Part shown: positions 4,621 to 21,561 of the stretch, one piece after another
Position numbering within the stretch: position 1 is the first letter of the stretch
How the letters are laid out: each line of letters starts with the position of its first letter
NCBI GenBank assembly: GCA_949297715.1
Contig: CASFTJ010000015.1
Coordinates: 1 to 32,240, forward strand
Direction: 5' to 3'
Source of the DNA: an uncultured bacterium
GTDB taxonomy: Bacteria; Cyanobacteriota; Vampirovibrionia; Gastranaerophilales; Gastranaerophilaceae
Length of the DNA: 32,240 bases
Translations under genes and position numbers: made by a program
The notes under the pieces: model-generated
Database searches by the model: none
What the model saw: the letters and a program-made list of their open reading frames with translations, nothing else
What the model was told of the DNA's origin: nothing

Positions 4621-6102
4621 TTATATAAAATCGGAAATATCTCGGAATACTTCTTTGCGGTTTATATCCTCTTTTGATATCGGAAAATCTTCTCTTAAAT
4701 TTGCAAGTTTTGGAGTTTCAGACTTGTTTTTTAAGTTAAGCTGAATTTCGGTCGGGAAAAATCTTGCGTAATCCATGTGATAAACTTTCCCGTCTGTGTC
4801 AATAAATTTCATCCCTAAATATCTGTGGTATCTTCCGCTGGTTTTTAAATCCTGCGCCATAATAACTGTGGATTCTGTGTGGTCTTGCAGCGGGGCTTTT
4901 ATTTTAAAATCCTGCATAAATTTTCCCATCCTGCCTGAAGAGTTTAAATTAGCGTCAAATCTATAAATTTTGGAAAAATATAAATCTATTAGATTTTCAA
5001 TTTCAGCTTTAGATTTTACATATTTTTGTTCACCTTTAAGATCGGCGTAGTACATTTTGGCAAGTTTGTTAAGAACATCATTACTAAGCTCAAACATTGC
5101 TGAAAAATCAAAATATTGGGCATTTTTTGCGTTATCCCCAAAACATCTTGACATTACATTAAATTTTTTATCTTTAACAAGCGGTGTAAAAGTAAACAAT
5201 GCATTTGCAATTCTGTCGGTAAATTTGTTTTTAAGTCTTAAATATTTTTCTTTGTCCCCGTTTTTGAGTGCTTTAACCGCTGCAATATAAGTTGCGTTAA
5301 AACAGTTGAACGAAAGACTGAAAGCATTTAATTGAGTCATATTTTCAGGTTTTGAAAAATATTCGGCATATTTTTCTGCACGTTCTTGAAGCTTTTTATT
5401 GTTCGGATCCCACCCTGAAGTATCAAAAACTGTTTTTCTGCCTAACGAATTGTATAACTCGCTTGAAAGTTTTGTAAAATCGTAAATATTTCCTTTTTTA
5501 TCCTTGATTGCAATATCCATACAATCGGAATCGTAAAAAAGTTCCGTCGATCTGTATAATAGAGTATCATTTCCGGAAGTCATGTTTTCACCAAACAAAG
5601 GCAGATTTCCCAGCCGTTTTCTAAGTTTTTTATATCCGTCTGTAATTAGTTTGAAATCCTCCCAGGACATTTCTCTATTTGAAGGTTTTGCATCAGCATA
5701 ACAATATCCGCACATGTTTTTGCACCCTCGCTTAACTGCAATAACGTGAAGGTTTTCGCTCATATATTGAATATCTTTCATCGAAAGCCCTTTGAAAACC
5801 TCAATTCCGTATTGAATTCCTTCCATTGTTTCCATGCTTAGGTTTCTAAAAAGAAGCTTGTCTCCGTTTGGTTCTTTTGCAAGCTCTTTTTCAACAGCTT
5901 TTGCGTATTTTTTAACTTTTAAAAAGTTCAAATACTCTATAATGTTTTTTGTTAAGCTGCCTTCAAATGCAGGCATGTTGGAATTTGGAGAGCTGACGGA
6001 GGAAGAAAAATAGTTTTGCTTGGGGTTTTGTTGGCTCTTATTGCTTGAAACAATGCCGTTGTTATTTATATTTCTGTAGTAATAGTTTGCGGTAATTCTC
6101 AT
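4621..6102 (-). CDS. Orphan radical SAM protein with an Asn-rich N-terminal tag
   Basis: The 493-residue protein carries the radical SAM cluster motif CxxxCxxC (Cys127, Cys131, Cys134 in GCKNMCGYCYAD), which binds a 4Fe-4S cluster and S-adenosylmethionine. SAM is then cleaved to a 5'-deoxyadenosyl radical. A GEN/TSGND stretch follows at the usual distance for SAM contacts. I see no C-terminal SPASM-type Cys cluster and cannot assign a substrate. The first 48 residues are low-complexity (Asn/Ser/Gln), start MRITANYYYRN and end in PAFEG, resembling the N-terminus of the protein at 20545. AGGAG lies 13 nt upstream of the ATG, which is long. The gene is flanked by convergent and divergent genes and so is transcribed alone. 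Confidence 0.75.
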   Translation of the reverse strand: MRITANYYYRNINNNGIVSSNKSQQNPKQNYFSSSVSSPNSNMPAFEGSLTKNIIEYLNFLKVKKYAKAVEKELAKEPNGDKLLFRNLSMETMEGIQYGIEVFKGLSMKDIQYMSENLHVIAVKRGCKNMCGYCYADAKPSNREMSWEDFKLITDGYKKLRKRLGNLPLFGENMTSGNDTLLYRSTELFYDSDCMDIAIKDKKGNIYDFTKLSSELYNSLGRKTVFDTSGWDPNNKKLQERAEKYAEYFSKPENMTQLNAFSLSFNCFNATYIAAVKALKNGDKEKYLRLKNKFTDRIANALFTFTPLVKDKKFNVMSRCFGDNAKNAQYFDFSAMFELSNDVLNKLAKMYYADLKGEQKYVKSKAEIENLIDLYFSKIYRFDANLNSSGRMGKFMQDFKIKAPLQDHTESTVIMAQDLKTSGRYHRYLGMKFIDTDGKVYHMDYARFFPTEIQLNLKNKSETPKLANLREDFPISKEDINRKEVFRDISDFI

Positions 6103-6717: not shown

Positions 6718-9270
6718 TTAATTTTCGTCGTCAATCAGTTTAGTTTGTTCGACATTGAAATCTTCAGCAACTGCCTTTTGCATATCGGCAGGAATTGCGG
6801 TTTCATCTTCTTCAGGGTTCAGGATTTTATTAACCGAAACAACGGTATCATTATCCATCAAGTTTTGGGCTCTGACGCCTGTTGCTGGTCTGCCCTGACA
6901 GCTTATTGAACCTGCATTAATACGGGTTACGACGCCGTTTGCCGTTACCATCATAATGTCGTCGGATTCTTTAACGATTGTAAGTGCAACTAATCTTGAT
7001 TTAGGTGATTTAAATTTAGTTGCGATAAGTCCTATTCCGCCTCTGTTTTGGCTTCTGAATTCGGACAATTTGGTACGTTTGCCAAATCCGTCAGATGTTA
7101 CGACAAGAAGATCCGCATCATAGTTTCTCGGAACTATATCGCAGCCGACGATTGTATCACCTGTTCTAAGTTTCATAGAAGTTACACCTCTTGCGCTTCT
7201 GCCTAAAGGTCTTAGATCTTCAATCGGGAATCTGATTGCCATACCGCATGAGGTTCCGATAATGATTTCATCGTGTGCGGTTGCAAGTTTAACCCAGCAA
7301 AGCTCATCGCCTTCTTCAAGTCCGATTGCGATAATTCCGTTGCGGCGGATATTTGAGAAGTTGTCGAGTTCTATACGTTTGATGTAGCCTTTTCTTGTCA
7401 GCATAATCAAATTCAAATCATGTGAGAATGTGCTGACAGGTACAACTGCTGTAATTGTTTCATTTTGTTCAATCGGAAGGACATTTACTATCGGCAAACC
7501 TTTTGCCTGGCGTCCGCCTTCTGGGAAGTCGTATACATTCAGACTGTAAACAGTTCCTTTTGATGAGAAGAACAGAACTTTATCGTGCATCATTGCCGTA
7601 AAGAAGTGCTGAATATCATCATCTTCTTTTGTTTTTATACCTGATTTACCTCTTGTTGCGCGGTTTTGGCGCTCAAATGTGTCAAGTGAAATTCTCTTTA
7701 AATATCCCTGATGAGTTATAAATACAGCCATCGGAGTGTTTGGTGTTAAATCTTCAATGGTTACTTCACCTTGTTCCGGCAGAATTTGAGTTTTTCTGTC
7801 ATCTCCGTATTTTTCTTTATCTTCGAGAAGTTCTGTTTTAATAATTTCAAGAATTTTGTGACGGCTTGCAAGAATTTCTTCATACTCTGCAATTTTCTTA
7901 ACAAGTTCATCATATTCAGCCTTAACTTTATCCTGTTCCAATCCTGTCAATCTGCGTAATTGCATTTCAAGAATTGCGTTCGCCTGATCGGTGTCAAGCC
8001 CGAATCTGCTCATCAAACCTTCTCTTGCATCGTCGGTTGTTTTTGAATTTTTGATTAATTCAATAACTTCATCAATTGAGCCTAATGCGATGATTAAGCC
8101 TGCTAAAATATGGGCTCTGATTTTAGCTTTTTTAAGGAAGAAAATAGTTCTTCTTGTTACAATTTCAACCCTGTGTTCAACAAATTCGTCTAAAACCTGT
8201 TTCAAATTCATCAATCTTGGCTGCTTGCCGCAAAGAGCAAGCATATTTACGCCGAAAGTTGTTGAAAGTTGAGTATATTTGAACAAATTATTTTTAACAA
8301 CATCAGGTTTTGCATCACGTTTAAGCTCAATAACGATTCTCATACCTTCACGGTCGGACTCGTCACGAATGTCGGAAATTCCTGTAATTCTTTGATCCTT
8401 AACAAGTTCTGCGATTTTTTCGATAAGCATTGATTTATTAACCTGATAAGGAATTTCAGTCACGACGATTGCTGTTCTTGCCTGACGTCCGCCGCCTCCT
8501 GCAATTTCTTCAATAGTTGCAACGGCTGACATTTTTATTGAGCCTCTGCCTGTTTCGTAAGCCTGCTTAATATCGTTCAAACCGATAATAGTAGCCGCTG
8601 TCGGGAAGTCAGGGCCTTTAATATATTCCATAAGTTCACTAACCGTAATATCGGGGTTGTTAATAAGAGCAACCGTACCGTCAACGATTTCGCATACGTT
8701 ATGAGGCGGAATATTTGTTGCCATGCCGACTGCGATACCTGAGCATCCGTTCAGCAAAAGCATCGGAAGTCTAACAGGAAGAACTGAGGGTTCCTGCAAT
8801 GAGCCGTCAAAGTTCGGTTCAAATTCGACTGTTTCGCAGTCAATATCAGCAAGCATTGATTGAGTAATTTTATGCATGCGGGCTTCTGTATACCTCATCG
8901 CAGCCGCCCCGTCACCGTCGACTGAACCGAAGTTTCCGTGACCGTCTACTGTCAGATATCTTGTTGAAAAGTCTTGTGCCATACGAACAAGAGCTTCATA
9001 TACGGCACTGTCGCCGTGCGGGTGGTATTTACCGAGAACTTCACCAACGATACGGGCGCATTTCTTAAACGGTTTGTCAGGTGTCATCCCTAATTCGTTC
9101 ATTGCATACAAAATACGTCTGTGAACAGGTTTTAAGCCGTCCCTTACATCCGGCAGCGCACGACCTACGATTACACTCATTGCATAATCTATATATGAAC
9201 GCTTCATTTCTTCTCTTATATTTACCGGAATTATCTTCCCGTCACTAAACATACTTTGTTGATTACTCAT
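6718..9270 (-). CDS. gyrA: DNA gyrase subunit A
   Basis: The 850-residue protein is full-length GyrA, the DNA-cleaving subunit of the ATP-dependent supercoiling enzyme (with GyrB, not in this window). The winged-helix/tower core is clear: [18 protein letters not shown], the [17 protein letters not shown] quinolone region (Ser88 and Glu92 at the positions of E. coli Ser83 and Asp87) and the active-site Tyr127 in AMRYTEAR. The C-terminal beta-pinwheel is present, but the usual first-blade GyrA box (QRRGGKG) is replaced by [10 protein letters not shown] near residue 537. A box-like QNRGGIG occurs later, near residue 740. GAGGT lies a few bases upstream of the ATG. The ends are well supported, and the start MSNQQSMFS fits family length. 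Confidence 0.97.
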
Positions 9271-9419
9271 CTCTTACCTCAGTCTGATTATTTCTATTTA
9301 CTTTTAATCTTTTTATCCATGAAAGCTGTTTATACCTAAAACATTCAACAAGTCTTTTAATTTTATATTTATTATTTCCCTAAGTGTCTGTTTAAAAGAA
9401 AACTTGCTTCCACTCCTAC

Positions 9420-9449
9420 ATTGTACCATAAACACGTGATTTTGGACAA
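9420..9449 (-). promoter_or_regulatory. Possible gyrA promoter
   Basis: Read on the minus strand: TTGTCC (9449-9444), an 18-bp spacer and TACAAT (9425-9420). This would give a leader of roughly 140 nt before the gyrA ATG. The rest of 9271-9419 is AT-rich and shows no gene or clear riboswitch fold. Confidence 0.4.
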
Positions 9450-9498
9450 TTTTAAATTAATCTTTACATAGGGTAAAGTTATGAAAATATTTTTGAAT

Positions 9499-9527
9499 TT
9501 GTACAGGGATTTAATTTGTGCTAATAA
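9499..9527 (+). promoter_or_regulatory. holA promoter, near-leaderless
   Basis: TTGTAC (9499-9504), 17 bp, then TAATAA (9522-9527) preceded by TGC (extended -10). The ATG of holA begins 7 nt after the hexamer and there is no Shine-Dalgarno sequence. Confidence 0.5.
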
Positions 9528-9534
9528 TTAAGAT

Positions 9535-10491
9535 ATGGCAGTTTATTTTTTCTACGGCGACGAAGATTTTAATATAGAAAAAGAAATCGACAAGCTGAAA
9601 AAAGGTCTTGATAAGAATTTTTTGGAAATGAGTTTTAAAACTTATGACAATCCGAAGTTTCCGGATTTAATTTCGGTTTTGCGCTCACAGCCTTTGATGT
9701 TTGGGAAAATGCTTGTGGTTATAAAATGTTTGGATTATTTTACGAAGACTTTTGACGACAAACAGATAAAAGAAATTGAATCAGCTTTAGAGAATAATAA
9801 TGAAAATCTTGATATAGTTTTTGTGGCGGAACTTCCTCGTGACGGCGGTAAGAAGCTTGACAGCAGAAAGAAAATTTTTAAAATTCTCTCAAAATATAAC
9901 GCAAAAGAATGTGCTTCAATTCCGAGTTACAAGACGGCAGAACTTGAAGATTGGGTTAAAAGGGAGGCAAAGGCTAAGTCTTTGAAAATTAATCCGGATG
10001 CAGTTACTTCTTTAATTATTCAGGTCGGAAATAATTTGCGCCAGCTTGACGGCGAGTTGGAAAAACTGAAGCTTATGTGCTATCCCGATAAAGTTGCAAC
10101 AAAAGAAATGATTAAAGAAATTTGTATTTCAAACGAAGATTTATTTGCGTTTTCTGATTATTTGATGTTGGGAGAAAAAGATAAGGCGCTTTTGGAATAC
10201 AGAAAATTATTGGAGAAAAAATATCCGCTTGAGATTTTGTCAACTTTGCAAACTATGCTGAGAAGATGGATTATAATCAAGGCAAAATCGTCTGAGCTTT
10301 CTCCTTTTGAGCTTGGAAAATTGACCGGACAGCACGAATATGTTGTAAAACTTTCTATTCAAAAACTTAAAAAAACAAATTTGAAAGATCTTGTAGCGAT
10401 GAAAAAAAATCTTACTGAAGCGGAATACAGAATAAAATCAGGGCAGTCTTTTAACGTGGAAGATGAGGTGGAAAATGCTTTCCTCAAATAA
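9535..10491 (+). CDS. holA: DNA polymerase III delta subunit (clamp loader)
   Basis: The 318-residue product has the size and composition of HolA, the 'wrench' subunit that opens the beta sliding clamp. The N-terminal region starts VYFFYGDEDFNIEKEI, the degenerate nucleotide-binding fold typical of delta. The central LIIQVGNNLRQLDGELEKLKL is the hallmark delta segment, and the C-terminal collar domain has repeated basic helices. The gene overlaps holB by 17 nt, so delta and delta' are made from one transcript, which fits their assembly into one complex. The start has no Shine-Dalgarno but a well-placed promoter. Delta is poorly conserved between phyla, and the identification rests on the motifs, the length and the holB neighbour. 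Confidence 0.88.
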   Translation: MAVYFFYGDEDFNIEKEIDKLKKGLDKNFLEMSFKTYDNPKFPDLISVLRSQPLMFGKMLVVIKCLDYFTKTFDDKQIKEIESALENNNENLDIVFVAELPRDGGKKLDSRKKIFKILSKYNAKECASIPSYKTAELEDWVKREAKAKSLKINPDAVTSLIIQVGNNLRQLDGELEKLKLMCYPDKVATKEMIKEICISNEDLFAFSDYLMLGEKDKALLEYRKLLEKKYPLEILSTLQTMLRRWIIIKAKSSELSPFELGKLTGQHEYVVKLSIQKLKKTNLKDLVAMKKNLTEAEYRIKSGQSFNVEDEVENAFLK

Positions 10492-20439: not shown

Positions 20440-20544
20440 ATGTCTATAATTTAAGATATATTAAGATTTGTCGGAATGAATAGCAAAAAAAAATATTTCG
20501 GGATTTAATATGATTACGTAAAATTAAGTAAACGGAGGCATGTT

Positions 20545-21561
20545 ATGCGAGTAAATTCAATAAATTTTTATAACTCAAATCCATTGACATTTGGTTCTGA
20601 AAAAAATAATAAATCAGATCATTCAATGAGAAAAGCAACAAAAGCAATAATGCTTGCAACAGCACTTTCTGCTGCAGTTGGCGGATGTGATAAATTGAAT
20701 GTAGAACACAATCATTTTTTCGAATTACCGACAGATACATTTACAAAGACAGAATTGGTTGCTACACCTGTACCGCCTCAAGTAATAGTTATTGAAAAAG
20801 AACTCCCCGGCAGAGTAGATACATTAATACAGGAAGTTCCTGTTCCGCAGGATCCGGATACTATTATTCTCGGGCCGGATACTGTTTTCATAGACAAACC
20901 GCCGATTATTAAATGGGATACGGCATATATAACTTTACCGCCTGAAATCATATTGGATACCTTATATATCAAAGGCGACACTGTTTGGATGAAACCGGAT
21001 TGGACTTCTCCTGTTCCGCCTAAGCAAGAAGAAATTTATGATGAATTAGGGCTTGAGCAAAATGGTGATGGTAAATTCTATTTAGCAATGTCTTATTATG
21101 ACAAGAAAAATAATGAATTTGTTCAAAGACATCTTGACGGACAATCAAGTTCAAGAGATGGTGAAATTCTTGTATATAATGTGGTTAAAACTAAATGGGA
21201 TAACAAAGCTGAAGGTGTCGTATTAGGTAAAAATGAAACATTTGAAAAACATCTTGAGTATTTGTCAGAAGATGGAGAATTGCTTGGAGTAAAGGTTATG
21301 AAACCTAAAGTTGATATTAAAGTTTCAAATGATGACAAAAAATCTAATTGGCAGGTATTCGAAAAAGGTACACTTTCAACTCCTGATGCTTGGCAAGATG
21401 CAGATGCCTTCTTCGCAGTTCCGAAATCTCAATTTATTGAACTTACAAACGGGTTTAAATTAAAATCCGATGGCCCTAAACAATCAGTTACAGTTGTTAA
21501 TCCATACGAAAGCGAATGGCTTTTAAAAGATTGGAATATTATTAAAGGCGATGTTGACTAA
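20545..21561 (+). CDS. Lipoprotein-like Asp-Thr repeat protein with an N-terminal FG tag
   Basis: GGAGG (about 20535-20539) fixes the start at 20545, giving 338 residues. The first 20 read MRVNSINFYN then SNPLTFGS, an Asn-rich tag resembling the N-terminus of the radical SAM protein at 4621-6102. A basic/hydrophobic stretch (29-47) then ends in VGGC (Cys48), close to a lipobox, so the protein may be exported and lipidated after an unusually long n-region. Residues about 85-150 are a Pro-rich stalk with six Asp-Thr units (VDTLI, PDTII, PDTVF, WDTAY, LDTLY, GDTVW). The C-terminal 180 residues look globular and beta-rich. A surface or envelope role is inferred. A second Met at residue 28 would give a normal signal peptide but has no ribosome site. 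Confidence 0.7.
   Translation: MRVNSINFYNSNPLTFGSEKNNKSDHSMRKATKAIMLATALSAAVGGCDKLNVEHNHFFELPTDTFTKTELVATPVPPQVIVIEKELPGRVDTLIQEVPVPQDPDTIILGPDTVFIDKPPIIKWDTAYITLPPEIILDTLYIKGDTVWMKPDWTSPVPPKQEEIYDELGLEQNGDGKFYLAMSYYDKKNNEFVQRHLDGQSSSRDGEILVYNVVKTKWDNKAEGVVLGKNETFEKHLEYLSEDGELLGVKVMKPKVDIKVSNDDKKSNWQVFEKGTLSTPDAWQDADAFFAVPKSQFIELTNGFKLKSDGPKQSVTVVNPYESEWLLKDWNIIKGDVD

Follow-up and report, generated by a model that had tools for sequence, protein, structure and literature searches.

Introduction

Type III effectors carry their export signals at the extreme N-terminus, in a stretch that is probably disordered, rich in Asn, Ser and Pro, poor in acidic residues and Leu and, to our knowledge, without a common residue motif. 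Extended signal peptides of the YSIRK and ESPR types have a conserved motif in front of their Sec signal. The N-terminal tag described here is placed and composed as in the former, while having a residue motif of its own, and in tagged lipoproteins it is arranged as in the latter. A further system is found in early flagellar subunits where, according to the sections of PMC8983047 that treat these signals, a hydrophobic N-terminal element is combined with a Phe-led motif and at least 19 residues are needed between the two. Complete or partial sets of flagellar genes have been described in Gastranaerophilales, and the passages of these reports on these bacteria make no mention of an N-terminal tag (PMC3787301, PMC5877343). 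In searches of open-licence literature by title and abstract opening we likewise found no report of such a tag, nor of any non-flagellar type III system in members of the order.

The DNA analyzed here is a 32,240-nucleotide stretch (the window) of an uncultured member of the Gastranaerophilales, an order of non-photosynthetic gut relatives of cyanobacteria; its genome is referred to below as G000. The analysis establishes the tag as a real, lineage-specific N-terminal signal that likely functions as a targeting peptide, with a type III route as the leading but unproven explanation.

Results

Two unrelated proteins of the window share a tagged start

The original prediction noted an "FG/FEG" tag on two otherwise dissimilar proteins of the window, an Asp-Thr repeat protein and a radical SAM protein (Table 1). 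The two are indeed alike in the tag only, as BLASTP finds no similarity between them (best E 0.61). The product of 20545-20598 is MRVNSINFYNSNPLTFGS, and the claim that this start is forced by its ribosome-binding site holds: GGAGG lies 6 nt upstream of the ATG, while the alternative in-frame starts (ATG of M28 at 20626; TTG at 20584) have no site of this type. The alignment of this protein begins at residue 1 in all 14 of 14 genomes of the genus. The radical SAM protein begins MRITANYYYRN and has PAFEG at residues 44-48, as had been read, and its reading frame opens just 6 nt ahead of its ATG; neither gene has a better in-frame start nearby. A lipoprotein-type signal peptide follows the tag of the Asp-Thr repeat protein, again as proposed, and its hydrophobic segment ends in a lipobox Cys (IMLATALSAAVGGC).

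Table 1. Coordinates of the tagged genes, their N-terminal elements and the FlhA-related gene.
Feature	Position	Strand	Basis
Tagged Asp-Thr repeat protein, 338 aa	20545..21561	+	
Ribosome-binding site GGAGG, fixes tagged start	20534..20538	+	sequence
Tag part A MRVNSINF, Asp-Thr repeat protein	20545..20568	+	position model; residue-1 alignment across genus
Tag part B PLTFGS, Asp-Thr repeat protein	20581..20598	+	position model; scan scores A8.3 B7.2
Lipoprotein-type signal peptide MRKATKAIMLATALSAAVGG followed by C, downstream of tag	20626..20688	+	sequence; best 14-aa hydropathy 1.83
Tagged radical SAM superfamily protein, 493 aa	4621..6102	-	Pfam Radical_SAM 25 bits, under cut-off 29.5
Tag part A MRITANYY, radical SAM protein	6079..6102	-	M1, I3 invariant in 11 sequences
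Tag part B PAFEGS, radical SAM protein	5956..5973	-	F46 invariant in 11 sequences
FlhA cytosolic-domain paralogue, soluble, 491 aa	L100:2608-4080 (G000 C1:272608-274080)		

The Asp-Thr repeat protein matches neither a Pfam family at E 0.01 nor any NCBIfam family. Its structure prediction from the single sequence gave no usable model (mean pLDDT 33.2), and that of the radical SAM protein from 11 sequences was uninformative (mean pLDDT 54.6). Tagged radical SAM genes of three other genomes (G081 C25, G087 C3 and G099 C7) have ADP-ribosyltransferase-domain genes in the same orientation at most about 1 kb upstream.

The tag is a two-part motif

The motif was modeled on two families of the order, the radical SAM relatives (40 loci, some of them one gene represented in two collections; dereplicated to 29) and a family of amidohydrolases (30 loci, dereplicated to 20), which have a common start despite linkers that differ in length and sequence. 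The tag consists of a part A, M-[KRQ]-[IV]-x-x-[IV], an Asn-rich, acid-poor linker of variable length and a part B, [VIPL]-[SNA]-F-x-[GAS], or more fully [VIPL]-[SNA]-F-[GTKSN]-[GASN]-[NSK]. The "FG/FEG" description was therefore right about a real tag and too narrow, since the core is F-x-[G/A/S] together with an M-x-[IV] start. In the smoothed model of the 49 training N-termini, position 3 is I (0.62) or V (0.23) and position 6 is I (0.27) or V (0.23). Among the amidohydrolase starts, 26 of 30 have F-x-[G/A/S] shortly upstream of the enzyme domain; by eye, three of the others (L076, L086, L093) have F with a different residue at +2 and one (L084) has none. A free EM motif search was rejected after it settled on the catalytic HxHxG of the amidohydrolases, and was replaced by an F-seeded search on truncated sequences. 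The Phe frequency of the resulting model is partly built in, and the model-free support for this residue is the invariant F46 of the radical SAM alignment.

In that alignment of 11 sequences, M1, I3, I12 and F46 are the only invariant columns before R86. Such a pattern is not expected of neutral remnants, and it speaks against common descent without current function, wherein a recombining 5' gene end would have spread across genes. The tagged genes of G000 do lie somewhat near one another, as such spread would suggest, though not significantly so (4 pairs within 3 genes against a permutation mean of 1.6, p=0.07), and we regard this origin as very improbable. The residue at F+2 is small in the smoothed model (G 0.57, A 0.17, S 0.10) and is followed by N, S or K, which would suit a cleavable leader from which a protease removes the tag by cutting after F-x-G/A/S, as in leader-peptide systems. 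However, the consensus has no double glycine and part A would be superfluous, making a leader of this kind improbable.

The core Phe of the tags falls anywhere from residue 8 to about residue 58 (residues 8-21 in the amidohydrolases), and its codons are used at background frequency (TTT:TTC 31:10 versus 16944:4922). Together these two features indicate that selection probably acts on the peptide. Relative to untagged, non-hydrophobic N-termini, tags are enriched in N (2.5x), P (1.6x), Q (1.5x) and S (1.4x) and depleted in E (0.4x), D (0.5x) and L (0.55x), with G and C also low; with the variable Phe position and the background codons, this composition points to a flexible peptide that is read by a protein. 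Of 33 tags found by the scan, 16 have a hydrophobic residue at F+4; for this count alone, eight false-looking rows of 41 were dropped. The original prediction had offered a sorting or a translation-level signal. An element acting on translation or mRNA, and encoding the tag residues by coincidence, would agree with the location of the tag where the reading frame begins, and initiation is helped by AT-rich starts; the varying distance of F-x-G from the start and the background Phe codons nevertheless make it highly improbable, so that the translation-level half of the proposal is disfavored and the sorting half remains plausible.

The tag is enriched at N-termini within the order

A scanner built on the model of the two training families was run on N-termini of genes called with a simple script of our own, rather than a published caller, with internal-Met windows as controls. 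In G000, 17 of 460 N-termini were tagged compared to 1 of 1791 control windows (p=2.2e-11), with thresholds that had been loosened after G000 was inspected; an earlier, stricter fixed-offset scanner, loosened once its hits had been viewed, recovered 9 of 470 genes versus 1 of 1791 at its lowest threshold. A set of 19 stretches of the same genome, taken unseen, contained 11 tagged genes of 339 (3.2%, 95% interval 1.6-5.7%), or 10 of 338 without a training-family member, against 1 of 1318 controls (p=1e-6). Cleaner tests come from sets not used for threshold setting. These gave 7 of 370 versus 3 of 1258 controls (p=0.0019) in families f2-f7 of the same order, and, for relatives within the window's family on mixed contigs, 6 of 303 versus 5 of 1446 (p=0.0055). 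The large contigs from this family showed no significant excess (4 of 458 versus 5 of 1686, p=0.1). Hits that appear spurious on visual inspection (including L013:623, L099:3627, L149:19218, L166:11705, L113:3853, L216:16611 and two IspD-like genes) stay, where they pass, in all enrichment counts for G000, the family, f2-f7 and the order, and the scanner also misses some starts that look tagged by eye. A bare F-x-G search showed no clear enrichment at N-termini (50 of 302 versus 212 of 1513 interior windows); the two-part model alone did.

Over the sampled order, 34 of 1591 genes were tagged, including two training-family members, compared to none of 554 in 12 sampled genomes from other orders of the class (p=3.5e-5), where 3 of 2075 control windows scored positive and the stricter scanner found no tag among 72, 74 and 65 genes. 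The two parts also occur together in the order: a good part B was found in 24 of 175 N-termini with a good part A and in 32 of 1416 others (odds ratio 6.9, p=4e-10), while outside the order the figures were 0 of 29 and 13 of 525. A chance origin is unlikely. The enrichment, the coupling of the two parts and the absence from the sampled genes of other orders together indicate that the tag is real, lineage-specific as sampled and unevenly distributed along genomes. The search of N-termini proposed with the original prediction thus returned enrichment where a lack of it would have counted against the tag, and the suggested restriction to this lineage is borne out both by these counts and by the named relatives of the radical SAM gene, 10 of 11 of which are titled Candidatus Gastranaerophilales.

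Tagged proteins are functionally diverse

A Pfam scan of 39 proteins with a tag or tag-like start left 26 (counted by hand) without a match at E 0.01. The matches comprised radical SAM (two proteins), an amidohydrolase, a CheR-type methyltransferase (in two genomes), a distant GH77, a GNAT acetyltransferase, HNH, DUF2963 (two), LRR_5, an ADP-ribosyltransferase domain and one weak phage/Sec1 match, with the GH77 and CheR proteins scoring far under NCBI cut-offs. Of four tagged enzymes searched against the PDB, one matched a CheR and the other three had no match. We considered whether the tag marks effector-type proteins, which the family tests did not support: 1 of 16 ADP-ribosyltransferase-domain genes with intact starts was tagged (from 30 fetched of 67 listed matches), and none of 11 intact LRR_5 rows, in which two pairs represent one gene each.

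A lipobox follows the tag or tag-like start in three proteins (the window's Asp-Thr repeat protein, L015:17422 and L148:4454), a signal-peptide-like segment does so in L100:13925, and a hydrophobic segment lies near the tag in 8 of 41 proteins of the unfiltered list. Most tagged proteins have none, and the lipobox of the window's protein is thus not general among them. A paralogue of the Asp-Thr repeat protein in G000 (about 32-35% identity) has the lipobox and lacks the tag, and paralogues in other members of the genus align only from residue 22 or later. An Asp-Thr protein paralogue that lacks the tag and has a lipobox lies at L004, about 8670-10112; its Thr-Asp-Thr repeat is longer.

The tag therefore looks detachable, which would agree with an intracellular docking peptide that holds proteins at a scaffold or inner-membrane site, enzymes permanently and lipoproteins before Sec, with no type III export. 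This explanation suits tagged enzymes and tagged lipoproteins equally, and the start (I3, V/I6) plus F-x-G could constitute a strand-type binding peptide; we judge it possible, if on the unlikely side.

A flagellar-type export apparatus is kept without flagella

The window's genome contains a run of genes for FliF (PF01514 and PF08345), FliH and FlhA, with a FliE-like gene recognized by eye. This flagellar-type export locus (L097:13169-19277; G000 C2) occurs in a genome with no flagellin or FlgD match. FlhB is found in 115 of 117 genomes of the order, G000 included, and in 72 of the 74 flagellin-negative ones (counted by hand), while 43 of the 117 have flagellin and 41 have the hook cap FlgD. 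Neither occurs in any of the 9 genomes sampled from the window's genus. Flagellin-positive relatives mostly have at least two FlhB matches and the others one (at least two in 36 of 43 versus 6 of 74 genomes, counted by hand; some of the matches may be fragments), and the rod/hook C-terminal family has 2 matches in G000 compared to mostly 5-9 in flagellated members.

A soluble paralogue of the FlhA C-domain is present in 116 of 117 Gastranaerophilales genomes; in G028 (83% complete) its match reaches only E=1.6e-37. The protein has an N-terminal part beyond the FlhA match and no membrane span. The 1.5-kb flanks of 29 other loci of this paralogue (98 genes) contain no tagged gene. The retention of FlhB and of the FlhA paralogue where flagellin and FlgD are often absent indicates that an export gate without a filament is widely kept. 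FlhA-type proteins occur in 94 of 146 genomes of the class, including other orders and most of the 12 sampled genomes that had no tag, so the export apparatus alone does not explain the tag.

Two proteins, L097:4971-6536 and L022:14265, begin MGMAASQAR[FY]LGLTARKTNVEYEGQQIN. The former is encoded some 8 kb ahead of the export locus, with no NCBIfam match and only a sub-threshold Pfam match; both are possible axial or secreted parts of the export apparatus.

Discussion

The tag is very probably a targeting-type peptide signal of some kind. The leading mechanism, which we put forward tentatively, is that it is read by a flagellar-type type III export route. It would be a short linear targeting signal prefixed to many unrelated Gastranaerophilales proteins, and its N-terminus (rich in Asn, Pro, Gln and Ser, acid-poor, with small hydrophobics at positions 3 and 6, and followed by an anchoring Phe) would be recognized in the cytosol by the export apparatus of the order; the soluble FlhA C-domain paralogue may serve as a docking factor. 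Tagged proteins would then leave the cell or be placed at the envelope without flagella. The enrichment and coupling of the two parts, the composition, the retained FliF, FliH, FlhA and FlhB and the FlhA C-domain paralogue count for this route, and so, less clearly, do the hydrophobic residues at F+4 in 16 of the 33 tags. Against it stand the tagged proteins with a lipobox or signal-peptide-like segment, which speak for Sec, as well as the short spacing in the amidohydrolase tags, the occurrence of FlhA-type proteins in other orders where no tag was found, the non-significant enrichment on large contigs, the mostly untagged ADP-ribosyltransferase genes, the untagged LRR_5 genes and the paralogue flanks without tagged genes. 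Fe-S radical SAM enzymes are also unusual type III cargo. A wider version, in which a non-motility machine with its private soluble FlhA C-domain receptor operates across the order and the tag is a general address label on tens of proteins per genome, is doubtful.

A readable N-terminal consensus means that, for an animal-gut lineage that is poorly cultured, candidates for targeting can be listed from sequence alone, and the I3, Phe and Gly of the tag offer a direct handle on their destination. If the tag is linked to the filament-less apparatus, relatives of cyanobacteria would use a flagellar export machine for secretion in general; if the address-label reading is true, a readable signal would direct tens of proteins per genome out of a bacterium that is common in the gut.

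Among known systems, type III effectors differ in that the ADP-ribosyltransferase genes examined here are mostly untagged, YSIRK and ESPR peptides in that most tagged proteins have no hydrophobic segment near the tag, and double-glycine leaders in that a single small residue, rather than GG, stands at F+2 of the consensus. Relative to early flagellar signals, as presented in the relevant sections of PMC8983047 and with F-x-x-x-hydrophobic as their gate recognition motif, the tag has a core of F-x-[GAS] with a hydrophobic F+4 in about half of cases, its elements are often fewer than 19 residues apart, so that amidohydrolase tags break the spacing rule, and its cargo consists of enzymes and uncharacterized proteins rather than axial subunits. 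It nevertheless resembles the dual export signal described there for FlgD, FlgE and FlgG (Bryant et al. 2022, PMC8983047), with small hydrophobics near the start followed by a Phe-led motif, and as in that system a flagellar-type gate is encoded in the genome.
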